Origin: a virus | Reading direction: 5' to 3' (one strand) | DNA: 37,212 bases | IMG/VR virus record: IMGVR_UViG_3300024255_000070 | Coordinates: 1-37,212 of that record | Shown here: positions 3,944 to 37,212 of the stretch, in pieces | Position numbering within the stretch: position 1 is the first letter of the stretch | How the letters are laid out: every line of letters begins with the position of its first letter | Notes under the pieces: model-generated | The model's input: the letters and a program-made list of their open reading frames with translations, nothing else | Told to the model about the DNA's origin: nothing | Databases searched by the model: none | Translations under genes and position numbers: made by a program

Positions 3944-5533
3944 GTGGCTAATTGTATTGACTTAAGAGATCAAATTACTCAAAATACTTTATCACTGAGT
4001 ACAGGTCCTTCCGTTAACTTTAATGGTGAGTATACGACAGCTCAAATTGCGGTTTTTACCGAAGAGCTTTCGAAGAACATTGCAGAAAATGCTAACAACA
4101 ACGCTTTAACTCGAATGACAAACGCGTTTGGTGATGGACTTAATAATACGGTTTCGTATTTGAATGGATTGTTTAAAGAATTAATGGCGAACAATTTAAA
4201 CGACTATCCTGAAATACAAACTCGCTGGGCTTCTGGAAATATGACTGCTATCGAAGTAGCGGACTTTATGGAAGCATTTAATTATACACCACAGGGTATT
4301 GCAAATCAAACTGATTTTACTAAACTATTACGAGAGCTGAATAATTATTATACTTCTTCGTTTAGTGATAGTTTACTCGGTGGATTTTGTAGTACTATGA
4401 CAAATATATTTCAAAAGATCGATGCGTTCTATGATCTAATAGGAGTAATTGATGGCATCATTACCGATGCATTAGCTTTCATTCAGAAAATTAATGAGTT
4501 TGAAGGATATCCTCCTGAAATTGCTCAGCAAGGTCTTATTACGTTTTTAATTAATCAAATTAAACAAAAGATGGAAGATATCGCTGAGAAAGTATTCCAA
4601 GAAGTTGAAGATGCGATTAATAACTTTAATGTTGAGAATATTATCGGTGAGTTTACCGAAGGATCTTTGGCGAGTGTTAAAGCAATTATGACTGCTAAAG
4701 AACAATTATGTACTGTATTGACTGATGAGAATAAAAAGAGTATTAAAGATAAGCTCAAAGGATTCGTTGACTATGCGGTAAGTCTATTAGAAAGCCCAGG
4801 ATTAGAACAAATTCGTTATCTTGTCTTTAGGTTCTGTGCCCTTGCAGCTAATGTCGAAGCATTACTTAAAGATATCATGAATCCACTCGATGATTATGGA
4901 TTAAGGTTTCAACGTATTGTTCGCCGGATGGAAGCAATCTCAAACATTAATACATCGACTGCAATTCGTAATGGAGCAATAAGATATTCTCCTGAACGTC
5001 GTGAAGAAGCCATAAATAGATTAAGAGCTATGTGGGATGGTGATAACAACGGAGAGGTCGTTACCTCTACTGGCGAAAAGCCCATAGCAGTAAAGCCGAT
5101 TACCGCAAAGGAATATCAAGAACTTCCTGTATGTGGTAAAGTATTTAAGTCTGGTCATAAAGGGATTAAAGTTTCGGGTGACTGGGTAGAAGATCTTGGA
5201 ATTACAGGTTATACACGAATTGATTTAGATGTTAAAGTATATCTAATGAGATTGAGAAAAGTACTTGGTAAAGATATTACTATTACCAGAGGGTGGTACA
5301 GCACGGAATATAATGAGAAAGTGGGTGGGGATCCAGAAAATAGTCACTTAAGTGGGCTTGTTATAGATATAAAGAACGATTTTAGTTTTGATATTCCGAG
5401 CGAAGACTTGAGTGTTGCTACTTCAATCAAAAGTATAGAAGACTTTCAAGAACAAGCATTTAAAGCTGGATTTAAATATATCGTCATCAAAGACGATGAG
5501 ATTCATCTAGACATCAGGAACGTACCAAGATGA
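3944..5533 (+). CDS. Baseplate-associated protein with C-terminal M15-type peptidoglycan peptidase domain
   Basis: The product has 529 residues. Residues 1-370 are mostly helical, with heptad-like stretches and no recognised family. Residues 395-529 resemble peptidase M15_3 (D,D-/L,D-carboxypeptidase and L-Ala-D-Glu endolysin type): ITRGWYSTEYNEKVGG, then NSHLSGLVIDI giving zinc ligands H468 and D475, and EIHLDIR giving H521 as the third ligand, with E519 or D518 as possible catalytic acid. It lies between the spike and gp25, and the spike lacks a lysozyme, so it probably cuts the cell wall during injection. The start is GTG at 3944, preceded by a strong GGAGGA at 3931-3936. The stop overlaps the gp25 start (ATGA). 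It could alternatively be a tape- or hub-associated lysin. Confidence 0.75.
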   Translation: MANCIDLRDQITQNTLSLSTGPSVNFNGEYTTAQIAVFTEELSKNIAENANNNALTRMTNAFGDGLNNTVSYLNGLFKELMANNLNDYPEIQTRWASGNMTAIEVADFMEAFNYTPQGIANQTDFTKLLRELNNYYTSSFSDSLLGGFCSTMTNIFQKIDAFYDLIGVIDGIITDALAFIQKINEFEGYPPEIAQQGLITFLINQIKQKMEDIAEKVFQEVEDAINNFNVENIIGEFTEGSLASVKAIMTAKEQLCTVLTDENKKSIKDKLKGFVDYAVSLLESPGLEQIRYLVFRFCALAANVEALLKDIMNPLDDYGLRFQRIVRRMEAISNINTSTAIRNGAIRYSPERREEAINRLRAMWDGDNNGEVVTSTGEKPIAVKPITAKEYQELPVCGKVFKSGHKGIKVSGDWVEDLGITGYTRIDLDVKVYLMRLRKVLGKDITITRGWYSTEYNEKVGGDPENSHLSGLVIDIKNDFSFDIPSEDLSVATSIKSIEDFQEQAFKAGFKYIVIKDDEIHLDIRNVPR

Positions 5534-5948: not shown

Positions 5949-7859
5949 ATGGCCAATCCAAAAACTCCAATTACGGAACTTGACTTTGAAGGTATTAAAA
6001 GTCAGTTAAAAACGTATTTAGCGCAACAGGCACAATTCAAAGATTACAACTTTGAAGGTAGTAACATGGCTGCTTTGCTCGATGTACTCGCTTTTAACAC
6101 GTTCCAAAATAACTTCTATACCAATATGGCAATCAACGAAATGTTTCTTGACTCGGCCGTCATTAAGAACTCCGTTGTTTCCCATGCTAAAGAATTAAAT
6201 TATATTCCAAGATCTCGCAGGTCAGCTAAAGCAACGATAAGGCTTGTAATTACAGCGCCTGATGAAGAAAACTCAACCATTACGATTCCAACCTATAGCA
6301 GCTTTAGTTCAAGCTACCAGGGTGAAACATTTAATTTTGTCACTGAACAAACATATGTTGCTCGTAAAAATATCGATCCAATTACACGTGAAGTAACTTT
6401 CATCGCAGAAAATGTAGATATTTTCGAAGGTCAGATGTTAACGAGCTTCCAGCGAGAAGGATTTATTATTGATGCTGATGGAGTATTACGAGTCTATCTT
6501 TCAAACAACGAAGTTGATACAAACAGTATTGTAGTATTCGTTGATGCTGAAGCAACTGAAGATCAAAACGTCTTTACACGAGCAACTACGATTTATGGTG
6601 TAAAACCCACGGATCGAGTATTCTATATAGAACCTTATTACGATGATCGTTATTCGATTTACTTTGGTAAGAACGAGTTTGGTTTACAACCTCAAGAATT
6701 CGAAGATGTCCGTGTAAGGTATCGTATTTGTTCAGGCAATGAATCAAATGGTGCTAGTCAATTCTCAGCCGGATTTTTAGAAAACGCTACTATTGAATGT
6801 CAAACAACTACGGCCGCAGCCGGTGGTGAAGAACGAGAAAGTATTGAGAGCATTCGTTACTTCGCACCTAAGGCATTGCAAATTCAAGAACGAGCTTGCA
6901 CAACTAAAGATTACGAAATCTTATTGCAGCAAAAATTTCCAGAAATTAAAGCAGTTGCAGCTTATGGTGGTGAAGATCTCGATCCACCTCAGTTTGGTAA
7001 GGTTGCTATTTCAGTTTACTTAGATAGTACTACTCAGTTAATTAGCTCAACATTGAGTAATGCATTTATTGCTTACCTATCAGAAAAGAGTCCTCTAGGT
7101 ATTGAGCCTGTATTTGTACAAACTAAGTTTATTTACGCTGAGCTTAGCGTTGATACTATATTCACATTAAAAGAAACAGAAAAGAATGCTTCGCAACTTG
7201 AATCATCTATACGTCAAATAGTACAAGCTTATTCAGATAATAATCTTGAGAACTTTAATACTTCTTTACGTAAGAGTAGATTAGCAAGTCAGATTGATAG
7301 TATCGATACTGCTATTCAAAGTACATCAATTATAGTCACACCTTACATTGAGTATGCTCCTATTCTAAATGTACGAACCGCTCCTTCATTTAACTTTGAA
7401 GCTCAGCTGGTTAGGCCATATCCTTTTAGAGCTGCTAACGGATTTAGTGGTTATAAGCCCGCGGTTACAAGTACTCCATTTGATGTAAATGGTGTATGTG
7501 TTTATTTGCAGGACGATGGTATGGGTAATATTATGACAGTCACTGATGACGCGACTGATCCACAGGTTGTAAACCCAACAGCAGGCAAGGTCAATTATGA
7601 CACAGGTAACGTTGTATTGTCAAACTTTATTGTTGAAGAATATACTGGTAGTGCAATTAAGATTAAAGCAAACATTAAGAGTAGTGATGTTAAATCTCCT
7701 CAGGGTCGAGTATTCCTGTTAAGAGATGAAGATATATTTGTTTCGGTATTGGAAGAATCAGCCATGGCAACTGGAACTTCTTCAAGTTCGACTATTGGAA
7801 CTCTGCAAACAACAGGATCATCCAGCGGAAGTTCATCTTCCAGTGGCGGCGGTTATTAA
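5949..7859 (+). CDS. 6: gp6-like baseplate wedge protein (Baseplate_J family)
   Basis: The 636-residue length is close to T4 gp6 (660). The N-terminus (TPITELDFEGIKSQLKTYLA, then SNMAALLDVLAFNTFQNNFY and MAINEMFLDSAV) is diagnostic for gp6. The segment from about residue 300 (RYFAPKALQIQERACTTKDYE, then AVAAYGGED) is the Baseplate_J core that dimerises in T4 to build the inner ring of the baseplate. The last 30 residues (about 607-636) are an almost pure Ser/Gly/Thr tail, apparently disordered and not part of the usual family end. It directly follows gp25 in the wedge operon. Confidence 0.92.
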   Translation: MANPKTPITELDFEGIKSQLKTYLAQQAQFKDYNFEGSNMAALLDVLAFNTFQNNFYTNMAINEMFLDSAVIKNSVVSHAKELNYIPRSRRSAKATIRLVITAPDEENSTITIPTYSSFSSSYQGETFNFVTEQTYVARKNIDPITREVTFIAENVDIFEGQMLTSFQREGFIIDADGVLRVYLSNNEVDTNSIVVFVDAEATEDQNVFTRATTIYGVKPTDRVFYIEPYYDDRYSIYFGKNEFGLQPQEFEDVRVRYRICSGNESNGASQFSAGFLENATIECQTTTAAAGGEERESIESIRYFAPKALQIQERACTTKDYEILLQQKFPEIKAVAAYGGEDLDPPQFGKVAISVYLDSTTQLISSTLSNAFIAYLSEKSPLGIEPVFVQTKFIYAELSVDTIFTLKETEKNASQLESSIRQIVQAYSDNNLENFNTSLRKSRLASQIDSIDTAIQSTSIIVTPYIEYAPILNVRTAPSFNFEAQLVRPYPFRAANGFSGYKPAVTSTPFDVNGVCVYLQDDGMGNIMTVTDDATDPQVVNPTAGKVNYDTGNVVLSNFIVEEYTGSAIKIKANIKSSDVKSPQGRVFLLRDEDIFVSVLEESAMATGTSSSSTIGTLQTTGSSSGSSSSSGGGY

Positions 7860-10804: not shown

Positions 10805-12574
10805 ATGGCCAAGCAGATAATTAATATCGGTGCATCAGCGAACGACGGAACAGGTGATCCGTTAAGGAATGCATTCGATAAAGCAAACGATAACTTCACG
10901 GAATTATATTTCGCATTAGGTAGTTCTACAAATGCAGAAGTTCTTTTCGATCAAAATGGAGCATTCGATCTTGTTGGAAAACCTCATAAAATTTCATTCT
11001 TGCACGATACAGAAGAATCATTACTCGCTCTAAGCCCAAGTACTTATCACGGATCTATTGGGCATGCTCACGATACAGGCGCATTGTATTACGCTCACGG
11101 TGAATGGCGTAAAGTGTTAACAGACACTTCAGCTGGTGCAGTAACAAACTATTCCGATCCTTTAAACAACATCGTTTACTCAACCAATATTACTAATAGT
11201 GAAACCGTTGATTATGTACTTAAATCAAATGCAGATGGTACATATACTTGGGTAGCTCAAAGTGGTGGCGGTGGTTCAAGCACTATAATCGGTTTATCTG
11301 ATACACCAAGTTCGTTTGGCACGGCCGGCCAAGCATTGGTTGTTAACAGTAATGCTGATGGTTTGGTATTCGATGATATCTCTGGTGGCGGTGGATCTTA
11401 TGCTGATAGCGATGTTGATGCTCATATCAATGTAAGTGGCGCTAGCGAAAACGATATATTAAGTTGGAACGGTACTGACTATTCTTGGATTTCACAAAGT
11501 GGTGGTGGTGCATATAATGATAACGCAGTAAGTGCTCACCTAAACGTAAGTAGTGCAAGTGCAAACCAAGTATTACAGTGGGATGGTTCAGATTTTGCAT
11601 GGGCCGCATTATCAGGTGGCGGTGGTTCAACTGCTATGGCTGATATTACTGATACTACAATTACAAATCCACAATCTGATGATATTTTAAAATACTTCGG
11701 TAGTGATGGGACTTGGAGAAACGTAACGTTCACTCCAACTTATTTAAACATCAGTGAACAGCCTGCCGGTGTTTCAGATAAAGCATTATTTGAAAACAGT
11801 TTCTTAAATGCTACCACTGTATTAAAGGTTACTAATAATGGTTCTTCTTCATATCGTTTTGACCAATATGGTACAGCTGATAACCCAACAATTTATGTAA
11901 AAGCAGGAACGACAGTTGGATTTGATTTAACTGGTGCAGGTGGTGCTGTACACCCATTCGTAATTCAAACTGCGGCAGGTGCAGATTATAATGAAGGACT
12001 AGTTGCACTTGATTTAGGAGTCTATTACGAAGGTTCAGCTGCAAACGCAGGAATAGGTGGCGCTTTATTCTGGAAAATTCCAGCAGGTATTTCTGGTAAC
12101 TATAGGTACATATGTCAAGCACACTCGAGTATGGTTGGTACTATTGTAATTGAACCTGCGGCCGGTAACAGCGGCGGCGGCGGAGGTGGTTCACTATCTC
12201 GAGCTACCGAATCCGAACAAGCAACTAGCCTCAACGCTGGATCGAGTACTAACTTATCATTCGCAAACTTAGGTATTTCGTATGCCTTGTATACATGCCA
12301 AGTAGATGCACCTTGCTGGGTTCGTATCTATAGTGATACAGCATCTCGAACAGCTGATGCTTCTCGAACTCAAGGTGAAGATCCACCAGAAGGTGGAGGC
12401 GTTATTGCCGAGTTTATTGCGACTCAATCAGGAACAACTGAGTTTAAAGTAACTCCGGCAATTTACGGATATGTTGATGATTCAGAAACAACTGTTCCGG
12501 TTACTGTTACAAACATAGACTCAGGAACTGCAACAATTACCGTATCCTTAACAGGGTTAGTATTAGAGAGCTAA
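10805..12574 (+). CDS. Glycine-linked tail-fibre protein with an embedded cupredoxin (type 1 copper) domain
   Basis: The product has 589 residues. The N-terminus (INIGASANDGTGDPLRNAF, then DKANDNFTELY) is a recurring tail-fibre attachment motif of marine phages. Residues 110-275 are three or four beta units joined by Gly-rich linkers (near 153-157, 194-197, 233-235, 271-274). Residues 335-450 form a cupredoxin: VKAGTTVGF, then VHPFVI with ligand H383 and YRYICQAHSSMVG with C437, H440 and M443, the Cys-x2-His-x2-Met spacing of amicyanin-type sites. A poly-Gly linker (457-462) leads to a C-terminal beta-sandwich (ALYTCQVDAPCWVRIYSDTA) common in marine phage fibres. AGGA precedes ATG 10805; an upstream out-of-frame ATG at 10800 opens only seven codons. 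No signal peptide is seen. The role of copper is unknown. Confidence 0.8.
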   Translation: MAKQIINIGASANDGTGDPLRNAFDKANDNFTELYFALGSSTNAEVLFDQNGAFDLVGKPHKISFLHDTEESLLALSPSTYHGSIGHAHDTGALYYAHGEWRKVLTDTSAGAVTNYSDPLNNIVYSTNITNSETVDYVLKSNADGTYTWVAQSGGGGSSTIIGLSDTPSSFGTAGQALVVNSNADGLVFDDISGGGGSYADSDVDAHINVSGASENDILSWNGTDYSWISQSGGGAYNDNAVSAHLNVSSASANQVLQWDGSDFAWAALSGGGGSTAMADITDTTITNPQSDDILKYFGSDGTWRNVTFTPTYLNISEQPAGVSDKALFENSFLNATTVLKVTNNGSSSYRFDQYGTADNPTIYVKAGTTVGFDLTGAGGAVHPFVIQTAAGADYNEGLVALDLGVYYEGSAANAGIGGALFWKIPAGISGNYRYICQAHSSMVGTIVIEPAAGNSGGGGGGSLSRATESEQATSLNAGSSTNLSFANLGISYALYTCQVDAPCWVRIYSDTASRTADASRTQGEDPPEGGGVIAEFIATQSGTTEFKVTPAIYGYVDDSETTVPVTVTNIDSGTATITVSLTGLVLES

Positions 12575-12575
12575 T

Positions 12576-15017
12576 ATGGAAAAGCATAAGCATACAGTTG
12601 TTCTCGTAAAAGGAACTAACGAACCAGAGTTTCTAGCAAATGAAGCTGCAGGAATGCAGGTCAAATCTAATCTAAGTTTATTAGATAGTTTGATTTCAAT
12701 GATGCTAACAGACGAAGAGGTTGCTACGCTTAAAGCAAGTGAAAAGGTCCGAGATGTAGTACCAGAATTACAAGTTGAAGACGCTTCTTATAATACAATC
12801 GGGTCACCTAATTATGAAAGAGGAGATGGAACTACTCCACAAAGATTAGTTGCTAATGATTGGGATAACGCCGGTCTCGGGGTTGCGGATGGTTTAGATT
12901 ATTCTCCAATGGCATTATTGTATACTGGCGGAGCAACCCCTACAGCAAATGAAACATCAAATTTTATCCTTTCCGGCTCGACTGGTTACGGATATCACTC
13001 TAATGCAGAAGGAGTCTCACGAAGCTTACCGATTAATTCGACGACTGAAGACCCTTTTTTCGACGGTCAAGTAATACAAAACTACGCAGGTGAATATGTA
13101 GATATTGTTGCTGTTGAAGCAGGATCACCAACAACCTCTTATGATAGCTGGCACAATAGTCCACATGTAGACTTTTGCGGATTGGGAGCTAACTCGGGTA
13201 CATCAAGGTTTGTTCCAATGAACTGGGAAGACTACGAACCTAACTTAGTGAGCTTTAACCAAGTTGATAACGGATCTGAATATTTTAGCGCTCACGCGAT
13301 TGGTGTATTAAGTGCTACAGGTGGTAAAGCCTCTGGTTGGGCTTTTAACGCATCTTTAAGAGTCGTATATTTGGGCGACGGTGTTGCTGAAGCAATGAAT
13401 GCAGTATTAGCGTGGCATCAAAGTAAACCTGTTAATCCTAACACTGGTATACGTAATGCAACTGTTGTAACTGGAGCTTGGATTTATACAACTGATGGGA
13501 TGAATGGTGGTATCCCAGTAGATAAAGTTAAAGCTATAACGTATTATCCTGATGGGCCAAACAATTCGCTGGGAAATCCCATTGACTCGCCTATAACAAT
13601 TAACCGAGGTGATCCACAACTAGCAACATTTAACTATAAAGTGACTGCTAACGGATCAAGTGCTTATCGTTTTGAAGGATATGACCGAGGTACTTACCGA
13701 CCAACTGGCAGCGTTTTAGCTAGTCAAGATAATCCCACGCTAGTTTTAAAAGCCGGTGACACGGTTGTTTTAGACGCAAGTAGTGTAGGTTCTCATCCTA
13801 TCGAAATTATTGACCACTCGACCTTAGAAGTAAGGACTGACTCGTGGATTACAGGTCAAGGAACTGCTACGGTTACTATTACAGTGCCTGCAAACACCTC
13901 AACTCTTCTTAAGTATAGGTGTACATTACACTCTGGAATGATAGGTGCGATAGTAGCCACTTCGTGGAGTTCAACTAGCTGGGAAGGTGATTTAAGACCT
14001 TTTGCAAATGCTAATATCGCTCCTCGTTTAATAGTAGATCCTTCTGACAGTACAGCTAAGTGGACGATACCATATAACCGTGACCTTCGAGATACAGCAT
14101 TTGACACTATCTTAGATAACTACGATACTGTCGGCGGAATATATTATTTTCAAAGTGCTGGCAATTATGCAATAGCAGGTGAGGTAGGTCCAGAACATCA
14201 GCATTGGCATAACCAGTTAAGTGTAGCTGCAGGGGAAAGTTACATATCAATAGGTATTTCATCTAGCCGATATACTTTAGCTAATTTAACTGCTGTTAAT
14301 GAAGGAGAAGGCCCGCTCGGTTCTGGTTATGAACAATTTTATCCTAACCGCTCTTTTAGAGGATGCTATTCAAACGAGATCACAGTTGCAGCGGCGACTA
14401 CATCCCGGTTGTATCCTTATTTAGATGGTTTTAGTGATAGAGGACCGGGCATAGACATTGCAGCTCCGGGGTCTAACACATTTAGTAGTTACCCAGTTGG
14501 CTCAATGCAAACTACTGATCAAAATGGTTATACATGGTCAGGATTTGGTGGAACGAGCTGTGCAGGACCTAGGGCTGCTGGGGCTGCAGCCTTAATGATA
14601 GATGACTTTTACTTGAAGCGCGGAACATATCCAAGCATAGCTCAACTTAAAGAGCAAATACAAAATGATAGCAAAAATATTGTACGGGGCGTTGACTTCT
14701 CAAGCACCAATTGGATCATAACTGCATATAACACAAAAACCGATACTACACAAGGGTCGGCCGGTGAAAAAGTTGTCCAGTACCTAGATGGGGCCAGCTC
14801 AGATGTTTATAGCATTTACGCAAACGATTTTAAAAACGGCGGCAGTGACATTACTGATTTACACGGGAATACTACTCAAATGATTAATGTTCCGTGGGCT
14901 GTTCGTAATTCACCGGGAAAGTACATGAATCATGGCGCAGCATTTGCACCTCGACATAAAGAAAGGCCTGCGAGTGGAAATGTATTTCCTAGAAGAAAGA
15001 AGACAATTGAGGTATAG
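12576..15017 (+). CDS. Subtilisin-like (S8) protease homologue with an inserted cupredoxin domain
   Basis: The product has 813 residues. Residues 1-72 resemble an I9-type propeptide (HTVVLVKGTN, then MLTDEEVATLKASEKVRDVVPEL). The catalytic domain starts near 165. The usual DTG motif reads VDIVAVEAG, with E181 where Asp is expected. The His motif is YFSAHAIGVLSA with H240, the oxyanion Asn is QSAGN with N530, and the Ser motif is GGTSCAGPRAAG with S661; SDRGPGIDIAAPG (about 620-632) is also typical. Between H240 and N530, residues 345-462 form a cupredoxin with H407, C449, H452 and M455. The C-terminus is basic (PRRKKTIEV). It sits between gp7-like and gp8-like genes, one base after the cupredoxin fibre gene. 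It may process virion or host surface proteins, or be a weak or inactive structural protein. Confidence 0.82.
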   Translation: MEKHKHTVVLVKGTNEPEFLANEAAGMQVKSNLSLLDSLISMMLTDEEVATLKASEKVRDVVPELQVEDASYNTIGSPNYERGDGTTPQRLVANDWDNAGLGVADGLDYSPMALLYTGGATPTANETSNFILSGSTGYGYHSNAEGVSRSLPINSTTEDPFFDGQVIQNYAGEYVDIVAVEAGSPTTSYDSWHNSPHVDFCGLGANSGTSRFVPMNWEDYEPNLVSFNQVDNGSEYFSAHAIGVLSATGGKASGWAFNASLRVVYLGDGVAEAMNAVLAWHQSKPVNPNTGIRNATVVTGAWIYTTDGMNGGIPVDKVKAITYYPDGPNNSLGNPIDSPITINRGDPQLATFNYKVTANGSSAYRFEGYDRGTYRPTGSVLASQDNPTLVLKAGDTVVLDASSVGSHPIEIIDHSTLEVRTDSWITGQGTATVTITVPANTSTLLKYRCTLHSGMIGAIVATSWSSTSWEGDLRPFANANIAPRLIVDPSDSTAKWTIPYNRDLRDTAFDTILDNYDTVGGIYYFQSAGNYAIAGEVGPEHQHWHNQLSVAAGESYISIGISSSRYTLANLTAVNEGEGPLGSGYEQFYPNRSFRGCYSNEITVAAATTSRLYPYLDGFSDRGPGIDIAAPGSNTFSSYPVGSMQTTDQNGYTWSGFGGTSCAGPRAAGAAALMIDDFYLKRGTYPSIAQLKEQIQNDSKNIVRGVDFSSTNWIITAYNTKTDTTQGSAGEKVVQYLDGASSDVYSIYANDFKNGGSDITDLHGNTTQMINVPWAVRNSPGKYMNHGAAFAPRHKERPASGNVFPRRKKTIEV

Positions 15018-15064: not shown

Positions 15065-16693
15065 ATGCCAGAGATTCTAAGCACCAATCTAAAAAGTGAC
15101 TTGAATAGACTCTTCCTTGAACAATCAAGAGCAAGCGAAGATTACTATCTTTTTGTGTCGTCAATCGGCCCGTTCGATCCTTCGGATTCTTTATTTTCAA
15201 AAAATGAATTTTTAGAGAAAACACTGTTTGCTAAGAAAATATCGTCTAACGATATGCATTACATGATTAAGTATTATCCTTGGCAGAAAGGATTAGTATT
15301 CGAAGAGTATGACGACCAAGTTGATCTTACCGGTGTTAAGTTCTATGCCGTTGTCGGTCCAAACGATAATGACACTGGAGACTATCGAGTTTATAAATGC
15401 TTAAACAATAACGATCGAACTGAGGTTTCAAACCCACCTAACTGGGCTGAAACAACTCCTAATCAAATATATGAAACAGCTGATGGGTATGTTTGGAAGT
15501 TTATGTATAAGCTTACCGACCTTCAATTCGAAGCATACAACGCTGTTGGTTATATTCCATTAGTTGACGATTATGTTATCGATCCTCCTACGAGTACAGG
15601 TAGCCAAGTCTCTGACATATTAGTTGTTAATCCTAATGATAACTTTGGATATAAAGAAGAGCGTGGTGCTTTAGTAGGTAGTCCATATTCGACTGGTATT
15701 ATTATTGTTGATCCTTCAACTGTAGTAAGTCCAACAACAAATTATTATACTGGGCAATATCTAATAACAACGAATCCTGATGGTGTAACAACAAGAATAT
15801 TTAAAATCACTTATTACTTCTATAATAAGAATACAGGTAATGCTCAGATACGAGTTGGTGGTGAGTTAATTACAGGTGCAGCAAATCCAGTTGCAGCTGG
15901 TGTTACTCAAAACGCTTCTTGGAAAATCTTACCAGAAGTTAAGATTGAAGGTGATGGTACAGGTGCTATTGGAATACCTAATATTGTCGATAGCCAAATT
16001 CGAAGCATTCAATTAATTGAGCCAGGCACCGGCTATCATAATATTACAATTACTGTTACAGATCCTCGAGTTGACTTTAGACCAGGGCAATCTGGAAGTG
16101 ATGAAGTTCGTTGTATTTTACGAGCTAGGCTAACACCTGATGGCGGCCACGGATATAACTTTATTGACGAATTTAAATGTAAGCACTTTATGCTTTATGC
16201 TTATATTACAGCAGATGATAATACACAAATTGGTGATAGCAATACTTACACAGGGGTAGGAATTGTAAAAGAACCAACTTTTCATGATACCACTCCAGTT
16301 ATTTTTGATAACCGTATTGCAATTACAACTGATGATATAGATAAGGTATCTGCAAATACAGTGTTAACACAACTAAGTAGTGGTAATATAGTAACATTCT
16401 CAGGAGTAGTACACGAGGTTGATGAAGATAATAATACCTTCTATTTAGCTGAATACATGGGACCTTATCCTAACAATCCAGCAACAGGAGACGGTGACAC
16501 TTCATTAGATCTTACTTTACCGCTTAGAAATATAACAGGTCAAACAATTACTATAAATAGTCCAGTAGAAGACAACATCGTGATGTCGAACTACCAACAA
16601 CGCTCAGGCGAAGTGTACTTCATGGAAAACTTTTTCCCACTTGCGAGAACGGACCTTTCTAGAGAAGAATTTAAGTTTGTACTGGAACTTTAA
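15065..16693 (+). CDS. 8: gp8-like baseplate wedge protein
   Basis: The product has 542 residues, larger than T4 gp8 (334), as is usual in marine relatives. The N-terminal block matches the gp8 family: LNRLFLEQSRASEDYYLFVS, then PWQKGLVFEEYDD, VYKCLNNND, and DGYVWKFMYKLTD (about residues 140-155). The end (VMSNYQQRSGEVYFMENFFP, then LARTDLSREEFKFVLEL) is also typical. In T4, gp8 dimers bind gp7 and gp10 in the outer wedge. The ribosome site is weak (GGGGC about 8 bases upstream of ATG 15065). A candidate late promoter precedes it. Confidence 0.85.
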   Translation: MPEILSTNLKSDLNRLFLEQSRASEDYYLFVSSIGPFDPSDSLFSKNEFLEKTLFAKKISSNDMHYMIKYYPWQKGLVFEEYDDQVDLTGVKFYAVVGPNDNDTGDYRVYKCLNNNDRTEVSNPPNWAETTPNQIYETADGYVWKFMYKLTDLQFEAYNAVGYIPLVDDYVIDPPTSTGSQVSDILVVNPNDNFGYKEERGALVGSPYSTGIIIVDPSTVVSPTTNYYTGQYLITTNPDGVTTRIFKITYYFYNKNTGNAQIRVGGELITGAANPVAAGVTQNASWKILPEVKIEGDGTGAIGIPNIVDSQIRSIQLIEPGTGYHNITITVTDPRVDFRPGQSGSDEVRCILRARLTPDGGHGYNFIDEFKCKHFMLYAYITADDNTQIGDSNTYTGVGIVKEPTFHDTTPVIFDNRIAITTDDIDKVSANTVLTQLSSGNIVTFSGVVHEVDEDNNTFYLAEYMGPYPNNPATGDGDTSLDLTLPLRNITGQTITINSPVEDNIVMSNYQQRSGEVYFMENFFPLARTDLSREEFKFVLEL

Positions 16694-23627: not shown

Positions 23628-26600
23628 ATGGCGAAGATTTCAGAATTACCTCCGATTACCGGTGATAATACTAGATCAGAAGATCTATTTGTTATTGTCA
23701 ATCTGGTACAAGGTGATGATGGCACATCAAACATCACTCGTAAAGAACTCGTACAGGCCATTCAGTACGAGGTATTTGATCGGATCACGATTACCGGCGG
23801 AGACATTTCCGGCGCGTTCATCCACGACCTGCGCATTGATCGAGTCATTATCGACAATTCTGACATCGAAGATACTAACTTTGAACGAGGGACGATTGAC
23901 GATACTGTCATTACGAACTCGGATGCTAATAACTTAATCATTACCTCATCCGAATTTAATATCGGTGAGATTAACGACTCTACAGCAAACAACGTAATCA
24001 TTACTCAGTCTGAGTTCAACGACGGCGAGATTAATGATTCAACCGGTAATAATGTTGTACTCACGAATTCAGAACTTAATGATAGTACAGCAAACAATGT
24101 TGTAATAACAAATTCTGAATTTAATGATGGGTCGATTGAAGATTCCACTGCTAACAATATTGTAATAACAAATTCCGAGTTTACTGATGGAGAGATCTTT
24201 GACTCTACCGGTAACAATGTAGTACTTACAAATTCTGAGTTAAACGACTCTACCGCAAATAACGTAGTTATTACTGATTCTCAGTTTAATGACGGAACCG
24301 GCAACAACGTAGTACTTACCAGATCTACCATTGATACTTCTGTCTTTACGAACGGTGAAATTGAAGATTCGGTTGCAAGCAACGTTGTTATAACTGATTC
24401 TGAATTTAATAACGGTACTGGTAATAATGTAGTACTTACAAATTCTACTATTGATGATTCTACAATCACCGATAGCACTGCTGATAATTTAGAAATTGCT
24501 AATTCAACGTTTACAGATGGCGCAATTGAAGATTCAACAGCAAACAACGTTACAATTACTCAGTCTGATCTTGATAATGTTGAAATCATTAACTCAGACT
24601 TCTCTGATGGTACCGGCAATAACAACGTCTTTACCAATACTACAATTGACCAAGGTACAATTCAGAATTCTGAAATTACTAATTCATCCTTTACAGGAAC
24701 GATGGATAATGTAGTAGCTCAGAACATGACCATCACGAGTTCAAGTGCTGATGGCTTTAGTCAAACAAGATCAACGTTCGACAGTGGTGATGTTACTAAG
24801 TCAACGTTCGACAATGGTATCGTTAAGGATTCTACTCTTGTCGACTTTGACATGGATCTCAATGATAAGTTTGAGCCACCTCTTGATCAAGATAGCTACT
24901 TTGCTATTAAGAACGAAAAGACAGGTCAAACAGAACAAATTTCTTACAGTCAATTATTTGACGAAGTATCGAAGAGTACTGCACAGGCTCTTAAAGTTCA
25001 CGTTGATGCTGCATCAGGTAATGATGACAACCCAGGAACTATGTTACAGCCAGTTCAAAGTATGGAACGAGCGTTTGAGCTTTGTTTAGAAAAGGCTGGT
25101 GGATCATTTGATCGAAATGCTTTAAACAACTCAGTTCATATTTCTGCAGGGCCAGGAACATATTACACCAAGGGTAACTTGATGTTGCCGGATGATTGTT
25201 CGGTTACTTCTACATCTGGTCAGTATGCCACGGTTATTGAAGCACTTCCAGGTTATGAAAATAACAATGCGATTCTAGTAGGTTCTGGTTGTTATGTACA
25301 GGGCTTCTCTTACATGAACTGGAAGATCGATAACTTCGATTTCCCAGAAGGTGGATTCGCGGTTGCTTATCGACCAGGCGCTAAGTTACTTCGTTCTCCA
25401 TACTTGAGAGACTCAACTCAGCTTTCAAACTTTGTTCGTTCTGATGTTGAACCACCTCTTAACCCATACAACACCAAAGGTACACTAGCTGACCTTGGTA
25501 GAGAGTTTACACTTGAAGTTGGCATGACAGGACAAAATGCTAACCCTGCATTGTCGTTGTGGCAAGAAGGTGATGAAGTTACATTCTCATCTGGTGCAGT
25601 TGGTTATCTCTCTTGGGATGACAGCATGGATGCAGCTCAGGGTATTGATCGTGACGTCGACCAAAATCGTAAGATTCGAGTACGAAACCTTAAGAACAAT
25701 CGAGGTTTTGCGGTAGGTGATACCGTACAATGTGAATCAGGCGGAACAGGAACAGTAGCATCCATCGGCATCGACGACTTCCCTAACAGGTTGGTAGGTC
25801 GAGGTGGTGGTTGTGTACTTGCAGACCGAAGAGTTCTAGATCCAGATTCACTATATACATATGTACTATGTTTTGGTTTCACACCTCGTACTCAGAACGG
25901 TATCGGTTATGTAGCACGGGATGGTGCTGGTGTAAACGGTATTGGTTCTCTGTCAATCTTCGTACGTATTGCATTCTACGCCTTGAACGGCGGACAAATG
26001 ACATTGAACAACTCAGGTACTCAGTTCGGTGACATCTCAATGCGAGCAAAAGGTACCACAAGGTTCTTTGCTCCTAAGTCTACTAGCGCTGCTAACATAT
26101 TTGGTAACACGGCATTTGCCGACACTATCGAAGCAAATGAGCCACTTATCATCGACGACATGGTCGACTTCATAACTGCAAATACTGCTTCGGGCGGATT
26201 GGGTTATAAAGGATATGATGCTGATAAGTGTGAGCGAGATTCTAAGATTATCCTCGATGGTCTTGGATATGACATTGCTCTTGATAGTAACTACTGGGGT
26301 CGATTAGCAGGTATTTCTTACCGTTCACCAATTTCATATGTAGTCCCAGGCGAGCAGCTTGAAGAAACTCTTGGTGCTAACGAGTACATGCAAGCTCGAG
26401 TGCAAGATCTCTTCGAAGGTGATCCAGCAATTGTAGCACGAGCAAATACCTCGATGCAAGAACTGTACAATGTTCTTCAATACGGTGAAGAAAACATTAA
26501 CCCAATTACTTGGGTACCAACATCTGTTGAACAAACTGCAGCTCGGGAACTTCTCCAAGATAATAGAACATTCATTCAAACTGAGTTGACCAACTGGATC

Positions 26601-29600
26601 GACAATAACGATCAGTTCTACTCATATGATAGTGTTGCATGCCGTAGAGATACTACTGACTACATCATGCCAGCAGTTAAGAATGACATGCTTCTTGACA
26701 CAAACTATAATGCAGTAACCGCCGGTAATGCATACTACATGGCATCTGCATCTAAGGTTATAGGTGAGCAACGAAATGAAACAATTGGTGCTTACCGATT
26801 CCTGAAAGATCGTACTAACGAAATTCTTGATGCGAACTCTTACATTAGTTCAGCTCGAGTCGATGGTGCTTTCGATGAAATTATTACACAACTACGAGCT
26901 AACGGTGCTACATTTACTCCTACTGGTGTAGATTACGATCACATTACCGGTGTTATGATAATGACCATCGGTACTCATAATTTAGAACCAGGTGATAAGA
27001 TACTATTCAAGCCAGAAAGTATTCTTCTTGCTTGTGAAGGTGATGGAAGCATTGGTCAAATCGCACATCCACGAGCATTGGGTGGAGCAGGTCGTCCAGA
27101 TCCATGCTACAACACACCATGTGAAATTACAGATGTTGGTGCAACCACTATTACAATTAATGCTGGTGTAGCAACAGTCGATAAAGCCCACACCTTCGTA
27201 TCAGCTTTACCAAATGCTATCTCGGTACTTGGTGCTGAAATTACATTCTCTGATGACGCTGGTATTTTGGAAGCTCGACGAGATTCTCGTAAGCTACTTC
27301 AAGCTAACCGAGAGTTTATGCAAGATTCGGTATTGAATTATATCGATACTAACTACTTCCATTACGATAACATCGCTTGCCGTAGGGATGTAACAGATTA
27401 CATCTTACCTGCTGTACAACGTGACATGGTTACCGGTAGTAACTATAACGCAATTCAAGCTGGTATCGCTTATCGTCAGAAAACTGGTGAGTCAACCATA
27501 CTTAATGAACTGCCACAGACTGTTGCAGCAATTGAAGATCTCCAGTTTAATACACGACAAGAAATTACCGACAATGTTGGCGTTGAGTATGGTGCTCAGT
27601 TTACTCCATCCAATGCTACTTACGATCCTAATACTGGAATCTTTGTTGCAACGGTAGGAACTCACAGTTTAGAACCTGGCGATTATGTCTGGTTTGCAGA
27701 TAACGGTATTACAATGAGTTGTGACATGGGAAGTGGTGCTACTAACCATACTTCACCAGCAGCTCACCACCCATTCTATCGTAAGCCATGTTTGGTTACC
27801 GAGGTTGATGCAACTACAATTACTATGAATGTAGGTACTGGTGGAACAGGCTTGTTCCCACATACATTTGTATCATCTGTTGCTAATGCTATCTCTGAAG
27901 TTACTTCGGTCGGACGTAATGCTGAATCTACTCAAGCAGATCTCTCGTTCCGTCAACTTGTTGACATTGTTAATAATACCGGAAAGACATATACACCAAC
28001 TGGCGTAACTTATGATCCTGTAACAGGAATGATGATTAGCACAATTGGTGATCATGATCTTCAGCCCGGCCAAGAAATTGTACTTGCAGATTCTTGCATT
28101 ACGTTTACATGCCCAGATGCAGGTGGTAACCCTGTTTCAATTACCCATCCACGGCCAACTGATCCAGTTTATCGTAAGCCGATCAAGATTACTGCGACAT
28201 CTTCTACTACATTTACTTGCTACATTGGTCCTGCAGGAACAGATAAAGTACACACATTTGTAAGTGCTACCGCTGACTGTGTTAAAGAGTTTGGTTACTC
28301 AGGTACTTACACTCCACAAAATGCTACTTACGATCCTAACACTGGTGTCTTCGTTGCTTCAATTGGAAAGCACAACGTCCAGGTTGGTGATTATGTAGAA
28401 ATCAAACCAGAGAGTGTAGTATTTAGTTGTGACAACGGTAATGGTCCAGAAGATCATGCAAGTCCAGAGCAACACCACCCATTCTATAAGAAACCAGTAT
28501 TAGTTACCGCGGTAACTACGACGTCAATTACTATGAATGTCGGTGCTGGTGGAGGTTATACCGGTGTTCATACATTTGTAAGTGCTGATGTTGGTGCTAT
28601 CATTGCTGATCCACTCGTTTGGACTGATCCATCATCTTACTTGAACTACTACACACCAACAACTGCTACATACGATCCTGCAACTGGAGTCAGTGTTGTT
28701 ACTATTCCTGACCATGATTTGGCAATTGGTGATCGTATTGAGTTTACACCATATAGCTTTACATACACCTGTTCTCTGGATAGTAATGCTACTGAGCATC
28801 AATATCCACGAGTTGGAGATGGTAATTACAAGACCGCAATGGAGATTACAAACGTTGCAGGAAACAATATTACTGTCAATGTAGGTACAGGATCTGGAGG
28901 GACTCACACCTTCGTGAGTGTGGCTAATGACGCGGTCATAAAGGTAACAACCAATACAGCCGGGCAGTTGGCTAGAGAGCAACTCCAAGCAAATCGAAAC
29001 ATGATTCAGACTGAGATCATGGAATACCTTGATACTCAATACTTCGTATTTGATGGTGATAAGTGTTCTCGAGATACTGGATTTATTGTTGATGCAGCAA
29101 GACGTTCGGTTGCTACTGGTTCTAACTATCCTGCAATTTACATGGGATTGGGATATCGAATTGGAACCGTAGGTGCAGACAAGGTCGTTAATGACCAGCT
29201 CACAGAAACTGTTGGTGCAATCAACTACCTCAAGTCAGAGGTTAGTGAAGAACTTACAGGTACTGCTTTAACTCGAAGCAACGATGCTTTCGACGAAATC
29301 ATTGACATCTTATCAAACGGTTCAGGTAATGCTGATACGATTGTTTGGGGTACTAATGCAGTTGATGTAGCTCATGCTAATGCTCGAGTTGCACTACAGA
29401 CAAACAAGACGTTTATCCAAGCTGAAACAGTAGCACATATCGCTGACACTTATCCAAATCTTACTTATGATACTGCTAAGTGTCTTCGTGATACTGGATA
29501 CATGATTGATGCAATCTCTTGGGATATTCAACACGGATCAAATGCTGGTGCGGTTAACTTTGCAAGACTTTACTTTGAAAACGCAATGGCTGTATTACCC

Positions 29601-32600
29601 GAAGATCAAGTTGTTCCAACCGTTCGAACTTGGGAATACATTGCTGAAGTTTGCTACTCGGTTATTCGAGCAATTGCAATTACACCTACAACAGGAAACG
29701 TTCAAACACAGGATGTTTCAGGTGGAGATTTAGGAATCATCCTAGGTAATAAAGGTCGTGATCTTGTTACGGTTGTCACTAAGACAATTGAAGCTGACAC
29801 ACTTGATTGGTTACCTTCTTATGTTGAACCTACCATTGAAGCTGGATTCGAGACTGCCGTTGCTAGAATGGATGGTAAGACTGAAAACCTTCAAACTGAT
29901 GTTATTGAACACATCATCAACGTATTCAACGGTCTTCCATATAACAAGGCTAAGTGTTTCAGAGATATTGGTCATATCATCGATTCGGTATCTAAGGATA
30001 TTGAGTATGGTGGCAATGCTTCTACTATTGAGTCTGCTGCATTCTACTTCTCACGTGATGATGAAACATCCGGTGATTACGAGCAACTACGAAGCGTTAA
30101 CGTTCTTCCTCTTGAAGTAAAAGGACAAATGAGAGATACTGCTGAAGAGTATCCAACTGCTAACGTTTCTGGTCTACGTACACTTATTAATGTTTTACCA
30201 GAAATACAACGAGTTCCAACTCGATTGGCATTCGAGAGATTAGCAGATGTTGCTGAAAAGGTCGTAACAGAAACTGCAATCACTCCTTCATCTGCTAATG
30301 TACCAGCTCAGGATACAAGTGGTACAGCCGCTCCTGCTGCTACCGGTACTGCGGTACATGACTTGATCCAAGCAGTTGCTGCCCTTGTAGATGATAAGAC
30401 TGCTGATTACATTCCTAAAGCTACTAACCCAACAGTTGATCCTAATAGGACTGTGGCACGTAAGCAAATCCAAATGAACAAGGACTTTATTGCTGAAGAC
30501 GTTGTTGAATATCTGAGAGAGCGTTACTACACCTTCGATGGTGAAAAGTGCTACAGAGATATGGCAATTCTGATTAATGCAGTTAAGCGAGATGTTCTAA
30601 CTGATTCAAACTTTAATGCGGTATTCAATGGATTAGCTTATCGAATTGGTACGAAATTAGCTGATAACGTAATCACTGAACAATTAACAGAAACTGTTTC
30701 TGCAATTGAATATACTCGAGATGCTGCGGTAGCCGCTGTAACCGATCCTACTGCTAAGACAAAGACTCTGAATTCATTCAATGAGCTTATCGACATTATG
30801 ACCAACGGTGAAACAGCCGCTGATAATATTGTATTCGGTCCATCAAGCTCTCGTGGTCTAAATGGTATTAATGCTCGGGAACAGTTAAAGAATAACAAAG
30901 CATTCATGCAGGCTGAAATCACTGCTTACCTTGCTGACAACTATCCTTCATATGTTTATGATGTTGCTAAGTGTGAGAGGGACGTTGGTTACTTAACAGA
31001 TTGTGTAATCTTTGACACTTACCACAGCGGTAACTCAGCAGTTCGAGGAAATGCTAAACTTTACTTCGAGAATGCTGTAAGTGTATTACCGGTTGATCAA
31101 CAAGCTAAGACCGCTGAAACATTCATCCACATTGCAGAGGTTGCTAAGTACATCGTACAAGATCAAGATGTCGATGGACTGGGACTTAAGTCTAGCTCAA
31201 ACAGTGCTACACAGAATAGAGACTCAGGTAGTGCTGGTCTAGCGGTTGGTAATGAAGTTGAGAGACTATTCTCTGTAGTTGCTAATGCAATATCAAATAA
31301 CTCACTTGAAAGTATGCCTGCTTTGGAAGAACCAAACAGTGCATCTAATGCTTATGTCGATGAATTCAAGACTGCATTCACTGAGTTGGAAGCTGTAATC
31401 CCAAGCGTACAAGATGGTCTTTATGCTCACCTTGCTGAGTACTTCGAGATTCTTCCTTATAGCGAAGACAAATGTCGAAGAGATACCAAGTACATCTTGG
31501 ATGGAATCTCACATGATATTCAGTATGGTGGTAATGCAGCAACCTTAGGTAATGCTAAACTCTACTTTGATAACGCAGTTAATACTCTGCCACTCGAACA
31601 GAGAGAAGCTTCTAAGTTTGCCTTTACTCACATGTCTGAGTTGGTCGAGAAGATTGTACAACGTCAAGAAATTCCATTACGACCACTTGATCGATTCGGT
31701 GTAAGTACAGTTGCTTATGATCCAGTATCTGGTGAAATGGTAACAACTACTTTGGCACCACACACATTAAGTCTTGGTGATTACATTGTTATCGAAAAGG
31801 AAGGTATTACATTTGAGTGTAATAACCCAGCCGTTGAGATCTCGCATCCACGAGTAACAGATCCTGTTTATCGTAAGCCACTTCGAGTATCTGCTGTTAC
31901 TGCAACTACATTTACAGTTAATGTTGAACCTGCCGGTGGATACACTCAGGCTCACTCATTTGTAAGTGCTAAAGCAAATGCTATCATTAAGGTTTCAAAT
32001 CCATATCGACAAGAACTCGGTAATGTTGCTGGTAACCCAATGATCGCTACTCGAGCAAAAGCATTAGGTATGATTATTACCAATGTTGTTGAGACTGGAT
32101 CTTATGCTACATTCCCAACTCGAGTCGATCCATTACAAACATGGCAATCACCAACAGTTATTGCTGGTAAGGAAGCGGTTGAAGATGCTGTACCTGCTCT
32201 AGCAGATAATGTACTTACATACTTGACCGCAGTTCAAAATGGATTAGGCTTCCCAGGAGCGAAATGTCGAAGAGACATCGGTTACTTAATTGATGCTGTA
32301 TCACACGACGTTCAATATGGCGGAAACTTTGCTTCTAGACAATCTGCAGGAATCTACTTCGAAAATGGAGTAAGTGTACTTCCAGCAGATACCCGTAAGC
32401 AAACTGCAGACATTTACGATTACCTCGGTCTTGTAATGTCACAAGTCGTTCAAGAAAATGATGTATCGCAGTTTACAACTTACACTCCAACTAATGCAAC
32501 TTACGATCCAGCATCTGGAGTATTTACCGCAACGATCGGAAGCAACAACTTTAAGGTTGGAGATCTTGTATGGTTTGCTCCTGAAAGTATTGTATTCTCT

Positions 32601-34803: not shown

Positions 34804-37212
34804 ATGGCCAATAGATTCGGCACACTAACAGGAAGAAGTAAGCTAATAGGCTTCGGAACGCCGCAAGCGTTTCCGATTACATTAGATCCTGTCGTCCATG
34901 AGGGCGCTCTCGTTTATGCCGATAACGATAAGGTATATTTTTCCGATGGAACTGCTTGGGTAGAACTAGCAGGCGCAGGGACAGGAGGAGCAGTTAATGC
35001 TATCCTTCCATTCGCATTTATTCGAGTAGGCCAAACAGCAGATATCTCAGGTACTGGAATCTCAATGTCCAACTGGGATGGAGCTGCTGGGACCGCAGAC
35101 TTTACCTTCGATACCGCTCAGCCTGACACAGATTATACTGTTATTACTGACGGTGAATTGAATGACGATAGCCGGTTAGTTTCGATTCAAAGTAAAACAG
35201 TCAACGGATTTGAAGCTTCGTTCTATGATAACAATGGTGCTGCAACCGCTCCATCTGGTGCAAGTGCATTTAGTATCATGGTATTTGGATCAGATCCAGT
35301 TGTTTCGGTTGGTCAAGGTATACCGGGCATACAAGGTGTTCAAGGTACTCAAGGTGAGTATGGTCCTGGCTTTACTATTGTCGGATCAGTACCAGATGTT
35401 GACTCAGGCGGTGATCCTCAAGCAACATTAAACGCAGCATTTGCAACTCCCAATACCGGTGACGGTGTTATTGATGAAGCCGATGATGAGCTCTGGATTT
35501 ATGACGGAGCCGCTTGGATAAACATTGGTTCATTCAGAGGGATTCAAGGTTTACAAGGCGATCTAGGACCACAAGGTACTCAAGGACCAACCGGTAATAC
35601 TGGTGTTCAGGGTTATCGTGGTGTTCGTGGTTTCCAAGGCGCACAGGGTACTCAAGGTCTTCAAGGTTTCCGTGGCTTCCAAGGAACACAGGGTGTTCAA
35701 GGTAGACGTGGACCGCAAGGTGTTCAGGGTACACAAGGTATTCAAGGTGACTTGGGTATTCAAGGTACTCAGGGAACACAAGGTGTTCAAGGTACGCAAG
35801 GTTTCACCGGTATCCAAGGTAAGTTAGGTTTACAAGGATATAACGGTACAGACTCAGGTGGTGTTATAGACTTTGGAATGATGAACACGAGTGGAGAGTT
35901 TCCTGCTCCTCCCGGCGGATTCTTCCAAGTTAACGGTCAATCAAATCCAACTGACGACTTTAGTGCTGTAACTAAACTTTATATCAGCGAAAATGATACC
36001 TATAACAATGACATTGAGCCTTTGCTCACTGCTGTATCTCAGTCTACATCCGCAAATAAAGCATTCGTAAAAATTACAAGACGCGATGAACCTTCAAGAT
36101 ACGTTATCTTTACCGTTCAAACAATGGTTGATGATGGATCATATTGGGAACTCGATGTCACATACGTTTCTGGTTCTGCTGCTAAAGAACATTTTGTTGC
36201 AGAATCTTCTCCTGGTTCAGGCACGTTTATTTCTCAACCTTTGGTTGTTGCATTTAGTATTGCAGGTGACCAAGGTATCCAAGGTTTCCGTGGACCACAA
36301 GGTGTTCAGGGTTTACAAGGTGATCTTGGTCCTCAAGGCGTTCAAGGTGTACAAGGTCCACAGGGACTACAAGGTGTTCAAGGATTACAGGGTGTACAAG
36401 GACCTCAAGGTGTAACTGGTTCTCAAGGTACTCAGGGAACACAAGGATTACAGGGTGCTCAAGGTACCCAAGGCTTTACCGGTGCTTACGGTGGAGTTAC
36501 ATTTAGATTTACATATGACGCTACCGACACGACAGCATCAGATCCCGGCATTGGTTTTGTAAAAGGTAACAATTCTGTCTTCGGTAACTCTACTCAACTT
36601 TACTTTGATGTTGAAGATGCTGATAGTGTACAAATTGCTGCAATGCTTGCAGACTTCTTTGCATCAACTAACCCAGGCAATAAGGGTTACTTAAAGTTAG
36701 CAGACGCTTCAAACGTTTACAATTATGCCCTGTTCGAAGTTACTGGTGGCGCTCTGAATGGTAACGCTGGTTCAGGTTGGTATCTCATTGACGTTGATAC
36801 AATGTCAGCTGCTCAAACCTATCCTAATGGTACTGATTTCCGAATCTCGTTTGTCAGAACTGGTGATCAAGGTATTCAGGGAATGCAAGGTCTCCAAGGT
36901 TTACAAGGTGCTCAAGGTGTTCAAGGAACGCAGGGTACTCAAGGATTGCAAGGTCTCCAAGGCTTACAGGGCCTTCAGGGTGTACAAGGTGAAGCAATCC
37001 AAGGTATCCAAGGACCTCAAGGACCGCAGGGTACTCAAGGTCTCCAAGGCTTACAGGGTGTTCAAGGCGAAGCTATTCAAGGTATGCAAGGACCACAGGG
37101 TCCTCAGGGAATGCAAGGTCTCCAAGGTGTTCAGGGTGAAGCAATCCAGGGCATGCAAGGACCACAAGGTGTTCAGGGTATGCAGGGTACACAAGGTATC
37201 CAAGGCGTACAA
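34804..37212 (+). CDS. Collagen-like (Gly-X-Gln) tail-fibre protein, 3' end outside the window
   Basis: The frame starts at ATG 34804 (MANRFGTLTGRSKLIG), after a GGAG ribosome site, and stays open for 803 codons to the last base. The N-terminal 170 residues include a fibre-attachment-like segment (VHEGALVYADNDKVYFSDGT). Four collagen-like blocks follow (35311-35370, 35539-35847, 36265-36492, 36862 to end), mostly G-[V/T/L/I/P/M]-Q triplets with few prolines. Between them lie three globular domains (about 35371-35538, 35848-36264, 36493-36861). The last two each end in a strand followed by GDQGIQG, which looks like duplicated domain-plus-collagen architecture. Homotrimeric fibres are expected. 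The C-terminus and any tip or chaperone are not seen. Confidence 0.85.
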   Translation, partial: MANRFGTLTGRSKLIGFGTPQAFPITLDPVVHEGALVYADNDKVYFSDGTAWVELAGAGTGGAVNAILPFAFIRVGQTADISGTGISMSNWDGAAGTADFTFDTAQPDTDYTVITDGELNDDSRLVSIQSKTVNGFEASFYDNNGAATAPSGASAFSIMVFGSDPVVSVGQGIPGIQGVQGTQGEYGPGFTIVGSVPDVDSGGDPQATLNAAFATPNTGDGVIDEADDELWIYDGAAWINIGSFRGIQGLQGDLGPQGTQGPTGNTGVQGYRGVRGFQGAQGTQGLQGFRGFQGTQGVQGRRGPQGVQGTQGIQGDLGIQGTQGTQGVQGTQGFTGIQGKLGLQGYNGTDSGGVIDFGMMNTSGEFPAPPGGFFQVNGQSNPTDDFSAVTKLYISENDTYNNDIEPLLTAVSQSTSANKAFVKITRRDEPSRYVIFTVQTMVDDGSYWELDVTYVSGSAAKEHFVAESSPGSGTFISQPLVVAFSIAGDQGIQGFRGPQGVQGLQGDLGPQGVQGVQGPQGLQGVQGLQGVQGPQGVTGSQGTQGTQGLQGAQGTQGFTGAYGGVTFRFTYDATDTTASDPGIGFVKGNNSVFGNSTQLYFDVEDADSVQIAAMLADFFASTNPGNKGYLKLADASNVYNYALFEVTGGALNGNAGSGWYLIDVDTMSAAQTYPNGTDFRISFVRTGDQGIQGMQGLQGLQGAQGVQGTQGTQGLQGLQGLQGLQGVQGEAIQGIQGPQGPQGTQGLQGLQGVQGEAIQGMQGPQGPQGMQGLQGVQGEAIQGMQGPQGVQGMQGTQGIQGVQ
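36862..37212 (+). repeat. Collagen block with a recurring GEAIQG interruption
   Basis: About 39 triplets, nearly all G-X-Q. Three times the three-residue phase is broken by GEAIQG, in which the glycines are five positions apart. The Glu codons of the three breaks start at 36991, 37069 and 37138, giving a higher-order period of 26 and 23 residues. The flanks of the breaks (IQGPQGPQG or MQGPQGPQG) are also repeated. Confidence 0.8.

Follow-up and report, generated by a model that had tools for sequence, protein, structure and literature searches.

Related systems

The closest described enzymes are those of the subtilisin/proteinase K family (MEROPS S8, PF00082). The protein described here shares with them the His, oxyanion Asn and Ser motifs and the fold, as judged from profile and fold matches. 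It differs in having a Glu as the acid, in its phage tail context, and in the presence of a cupredoxin and an extra β-hairpin subdomain inserted between the His and the Asn. The cupredoxin resembles the blue copper proteins plastocyanin, rusticyanin and amicyanin (PF00127/PF13473) in its profile match and its H...C-x2-H-x2-M ligands, the C-x2-H-x2-M spacing being similar to that of amicyanin. Unlike these proteins, however, it is embedded in a putative tail protease, and in relatives it is also permuted. No description of a cupredoxin inside an S8 protease was found in Pfam, NCBIfam, the PDB or the literature searched. Nor was a report of a cupredoxin in phage virions found in the literature searched, which lay largely outside the subscription journals.

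Homologous S8 proteins occur in the tail/baseplate regions of cyanophages and related T4-like marine phages (S-SSM7, P-SSM2, S-CAM1 and S-H9-1). The S-SSM7 and P-SSM2 proteins have no insert, that of S-H9-1 has a C-terminal cupredoxin, and that of S-CAM1 has a permuted cupredoxin in another loop. Immunoglobulin-like domains are mobile β-sandwich modules scattered through phage tail and capsid proteins; the phage cupredoxins have another fold and, unlike them, keep a putative metal site. Metal-binding domains of marine phage tails are represented by tail fibers with iron-binding domains (PMC11705849). These differ from the present case in that the metal is iron, the motif is another one and no protease is involved.

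The S8-cupredoxin gene and its baseplate neighbors

The window, that is, the whole stretch of DNA analyzed, is a 37,212-base virus record, IMG/VR IMGVR_UViG_3300024255_000070; other records are cited by L numbers. Positions 12576-15017 (+ strand) form an unbroken reading frame of 813 amino acids, which was assigned as an S8 protein with an inserted cupredoxin from the ORF, PF00082, homologues and phrog_15006 ("tail fiber protein", E=2e-39). The gene is also present on four other IMG/VR contigs, full length in L002-L004 and with its start only in L005, where the contig end is reached before the insert. It is therefore not an assembly artefact.

The S8 gene is surrounded by baseplate genes of the T4 type, which encode a gp25-like wedge subunit, a hub/lysozyme, gp6, a gp9-type connector and a wedge subunit. 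The gp9-type baseplate wedge/tail-fiber connector protein (10805-12574, +; 589 amino acids; PF07880, phrog_677) is encoded upstream, with a gap of one base. By profile match and alignment it has a cupredoxin module of its own, the second of this family in the window, at residues ~338-452 (11816-12160, +). The wedge subunit (15065-16693, +; phrog_438) follows downstream. In the insert-bearing members of the S8 clade to which the window belongs, the Glu clade described below, the directly upstream gene always ends in the C-terminal domain of the gp9-type protein.

The host is probably, though tentatively, not a cyanobacterium, since the closest relatives of the window gp6 protein are in Sinorhizobium and Caulobacter phages and psbA was not found in a 98-kb sibling contig. 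Elsewhere in the window, the protein encoded at 3944-5533 has a peptidase M15 match in its C-terminal part (E=1e-5). A 3565-amino acid ORF (23628-34325) has pentapeptide-like repeats close to its start (Pfam E=1e-11), and collagen-like repeats (Pfam E=6e-43) are found at 34804-37212, in a frame still open at the window end.

The S8 domain

The preliminary description, made from the sequence of the window, recognized a subtilisin-like protease with motifs at His240, Asn530 and Ser661. This was borne out. Residues 516-677 score above the cut-off of Pfam Peptidase_S8 (PF00082), with E=1e-9. The catalytic His240 (13293-13295, +), the oxyanion Asn530 (14163-14165, +) and the catalytic Ser661 (14556-14558, +), which is in the sequence GGTSCAGP inside the PF00082 match, are invariant in an alignment of the window protein with nine divergent phage S8 proteins. 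Collection scans together with annotated phage records yielded 216 usable S8 ORFs, or 103 representatives after removal of near copies. The His and the Asn are each present in 103/103, and the Ser in all 102 that reach it, a count biased in one subset because one search pattern adjoined the Ser motif.

The catalytic Asp expected at the first triad position is replaced by Glu181 (13116-13118, +), which aligns with the VDVVIxD motif found in other phage S8 proteins. Of the 103 representatives, 91 have Asp as the acid and 12 have Glu. Glu is found in 12/12 representatives of the window's clade, and the Glu members, including the window and S-CAM1, form one clade with a support of 1.0, at the end of a long branch. 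On its sequence, the 813-residue protein, a putative protease, is classed among the S8-fold homologues, its triad being variant.

With Glu as the acid, activity may be altered or lost. The S8 fold could have degenerated into a non-catalytic tail scaffold, with Glu181 marking its decay and both domains structural, which would fit the change from Asp to Glu throughout the clade and the long branch leading to it. Such a pseudoprotease is unlikely, however; the His, Asn and Ser are invariant across the representatives, the Glu clade included, and every member retains an acid.

Two regions flank the catalytic domain. The N-terminal ~64 residues (12576-12767, +) are predicted to form a β-α-β-β-α-β domain, with strands at residues 4-10, 28-31, 39-44 and 58-63 and helices at 16-22 and 46-53 of the AlphaFold2 model (pLDDT ~77-90, one block 57). 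Judged from this predicted fold, it is a probable subtilisin-type prodomain; its sequence matched no solved prodomain significantly and had no Pfam match. Near the C-terminus, alignments identify a GxxFPR tail motif (14976-14993, +), which several phage S8 proteins of this group share and which could be a processing or attachment signal.

Fold searches with the models of the window protein and of a permuted member gave S8 structures only, among the matches listed. No cellular relative was found in the prokaryote genomes searched with the window/S-CAM1 alignment.

The inserted cupredoxin

The cupredoxin occupies residues ~350-463 (13623-13964, +), close to the 345-462 originally proposed, and was delimited by phrog_677/9158, profiles and the model. 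A cupredoxin profile built without window sequences matches residues ~351-460 with an i-E of 6e-19. Searched against the PDB, a profile of nine such phage modules hit the blue copper proteins rusticyanin (3e-6), plastocyanin (1e-5) and amicyanin (1e-4). Single module sequences fall below the Pfam cupredoxin cut-offs, and the single-protein match to PF00127 is weak or absent. Structure prediction, which had been suggested as a check on the folding of the two domains, gave the cupredoxin as a confident β domain: its AlphaFold2 pLDDT is ~80-89 over most of the second half and 62-82 before, and the S8 scaffold is modeled with moderate confidence only (mean pLDDT 56.6).

The insert has the complete type-1 copper ligand set (His, Cys, His, Met) of the cupredoxin family. 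The ligands are those predicted from the outset: His407 (13794-13796, +) and, in the C-x2-H-x2-M motif (13920-13940, +), Cys449, His452 and Met455. All four are invariant in the nine-module alignment. Among 42 divergent phage modules, defined as those below 60% identity, each is present in 40, and the remaining two lose the whole ligand pattern together. The ligand columns rank with the best-conserved positions of the module, and one Tyr is invariant across all 42 modules. That the four are so widely conserved, and kept or lost together, points to selection for a putative metal site.

The insert is at the tip of a hairpin, at a point that falls between NRPG and SW in insert-free relatives when the inserts are removed from the alignment. 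This slot is between the strand ending in ATVVTGAW and the helix that precedes the Asn motif, and relatives align through the region once the inserts are removed. By reference to the S8 fold, the slot would be near the substrate-binding side.

Recurrence and circular permutation

A search for S8 proteins with this inserted domain, also suggested earlier, found them recurrently, in several slots and clades. The window and L022-L035 have a standard cupredoxin between the His and the Asn. L041-L046 have no insert, yet they retain the Glu, His, Asn and Ser; the S8 scaffold can therefore dispense with the insert. The single-cell marine virus AG-345-F15 and L070-L073 have a standard copy in the same interval as the window and are nested among insert-free Asp-type proteins. 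Their clade acquired the insert independently. In S-H9-1 and many relatives the cupredoxin is at the C-terminus, and in L059 copies are ahead of the catalytic domain. The module reached S8 proteins by several independent routes. It is also found in many phage ORFs without a protease; among the matches listed for a degenerate YYYCxxHxxMxG DNA pattern, 105 of 118 ORFs with the motif fit the cupredoxin profile.

S-CAM1 and L036-L069 (except L041-L046 and L059) have a circularly permuted cupredoxin between the Glu and the His, in which the C-x2-H-x2-M part precedes the part with the first His. An example is the S-CAM1-type S8 gene at 7080-9335 of L006. Two different loops of the catalytic domain are thus used for inserts within the Glu clade. 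In L036-L040 and L049 the slot used in the window is occupied by a second permuted copy, so that this slot has received both standard and permuted copies. When the permuted halves were rejoined in standard order, the profile score rose by 17-29 bits in 19/19 cases. In the AlphaFold2 model of one permuted member the domain has a pLDDT of mostly 74-92. Permuted copies of both slots cluster together (support 0.999), a pattern that points to a single permutation and a later internal duplication. No relevant report of a natural permuted cupredoxin was found in the literature searched.

For most pairs of relatives dN/dS is 0.15-0.6, and the protein is under purifying selection in most of them. Between the window and its nearest copies it is about 1.3, on few changes.

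Function of the insert

The gene product is best explained, with a probability of about 0.6, as a tail-associated S8 protease whose surface hairpin bears a mobile copper-binding β-sandwich with an accessory role, structural or adhesive; we infer the copper binding, activity, virion location and role. It would be part of the tail or baseplate of a T4-like marine phage. The probable prodomain and the Glu-His-Ser triad suggest that the protease may mature itself, and it may then target a host-surface protein at adsorption or tail proteins during assembly. The insert would be one copy of a β-sandwich common in marine phage tail proteins, folding on its own and playing no part in catalysis. Most probably it serves as a metal-stabilized adhesive or spacer domain orienting the protease on the tail or toward the host envelope.

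Several observations argue for an accessory. First, the gene is in a baseplate cluster between the gp9-type connector and the wedge subunit, with a conserved upstream partner. Second, the module is also in the adjacent gp9-type protein and in protease-free phage ORFs. Third, the slot at the hairpin tip is clean, the scaffold can do without the insert, the module entered by several routes, its ligands are kept or lost together, and selection is purifying in most relatives. Against it, the strong conservation of the redox-type ligands exceeds what a purely adhesive domain would need. The dN/dS of about 1.3 and the mean pLDDT of 56.6 for the S8 model were also counted against it.

Of the two roles first proposed for the insert, a structural accessory projecting from the protease is the best fit, given the hairpin tip, its absence in sisters, the other slots and the non-protease tail proteins. 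Control of the activity by metal or redox state is less likely, though possible, with nothing specific in its support. In such a switch the cupredoxin would gate the active site, and metal loading or oxidation state at the host envelope would turn the protease on or off. In favor of a switch, the insert interrupts the catalytic domain on the side of the substrate, two catalytic-domain loops were used in the Glu clade, and the copper ligands are strictly kept. However, sister clades have no insert, another clade has the module at the C-terminus, protease-free proteins have it, and no sign of allostery was seen, which makes a switch quite unlikely. Its fuller form, a copper/redox gate on a Glu-triad tail protease with host-envelope contact triggering proteolysis during infection, is improbable. 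The domain has been plugged in repeatedly, once in permuted form, a pattern suggestive of a movable module of the tail and not of a switch that arose a single time.

The cupredoxin could also be an electron-transfer or copper-delivery domain, the protease being the carrier by which the tail takes a copper/redox center to the host envelope. The full type-1 ligand set with amicyanin-like spacing, present in 40/42 divergent copies, would suit this role, and for iron, phage tails that carry the metal have been proposed under the name "Ferrojan horse" (PMC11705849). No partner oxidoreductase was seen near the S8-cupredoxin gene, however, and the window has only two copies of the module; delivery is improbable. 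That chance similarity, a frameshift or misassembly produced the apparent fusion is scarcely credible in view of the intact ORFs on independent contigs, the external PDB cupredoxin match, the window-free profile at 6e-19, and the repetition of the architecture in divergent clades.

Implications

The architecture given in the preliminary description stands; the phage-tail context, Glu181, the recurrence and the permutation were absent from it. With the accessory reading, a copper-protein fold joins the mobile modules of marine phage tail proteins, in a placement inside a protease catalytic domain that was not found described before. The natural permutation in the S-CAM1 clade offers a ready comparison of insertion topologies, and the Glu conserved where the triad otherwise has Asp is a natural test of the S8 acid requirement.

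Cyanophage PetE is a stand-alone small plastocyanin, whereas the window cupredoxins are embedded in tail proteins of 813 and 589 amino acids and do not qualify as PetE. In Synechococcus phage S-SCSM2R (L009), a short PetE-annotated protein (7209-7715), encoded beside an S8 gene, carries a structural-type cupredoxin of this kind; it is probably a tail protein rather than a photosynthetic plastocyanin. Structural cupredoxins can pass for photosynthetic PetE in cyanophage annotation, which affects counts of phage metabolic genes.
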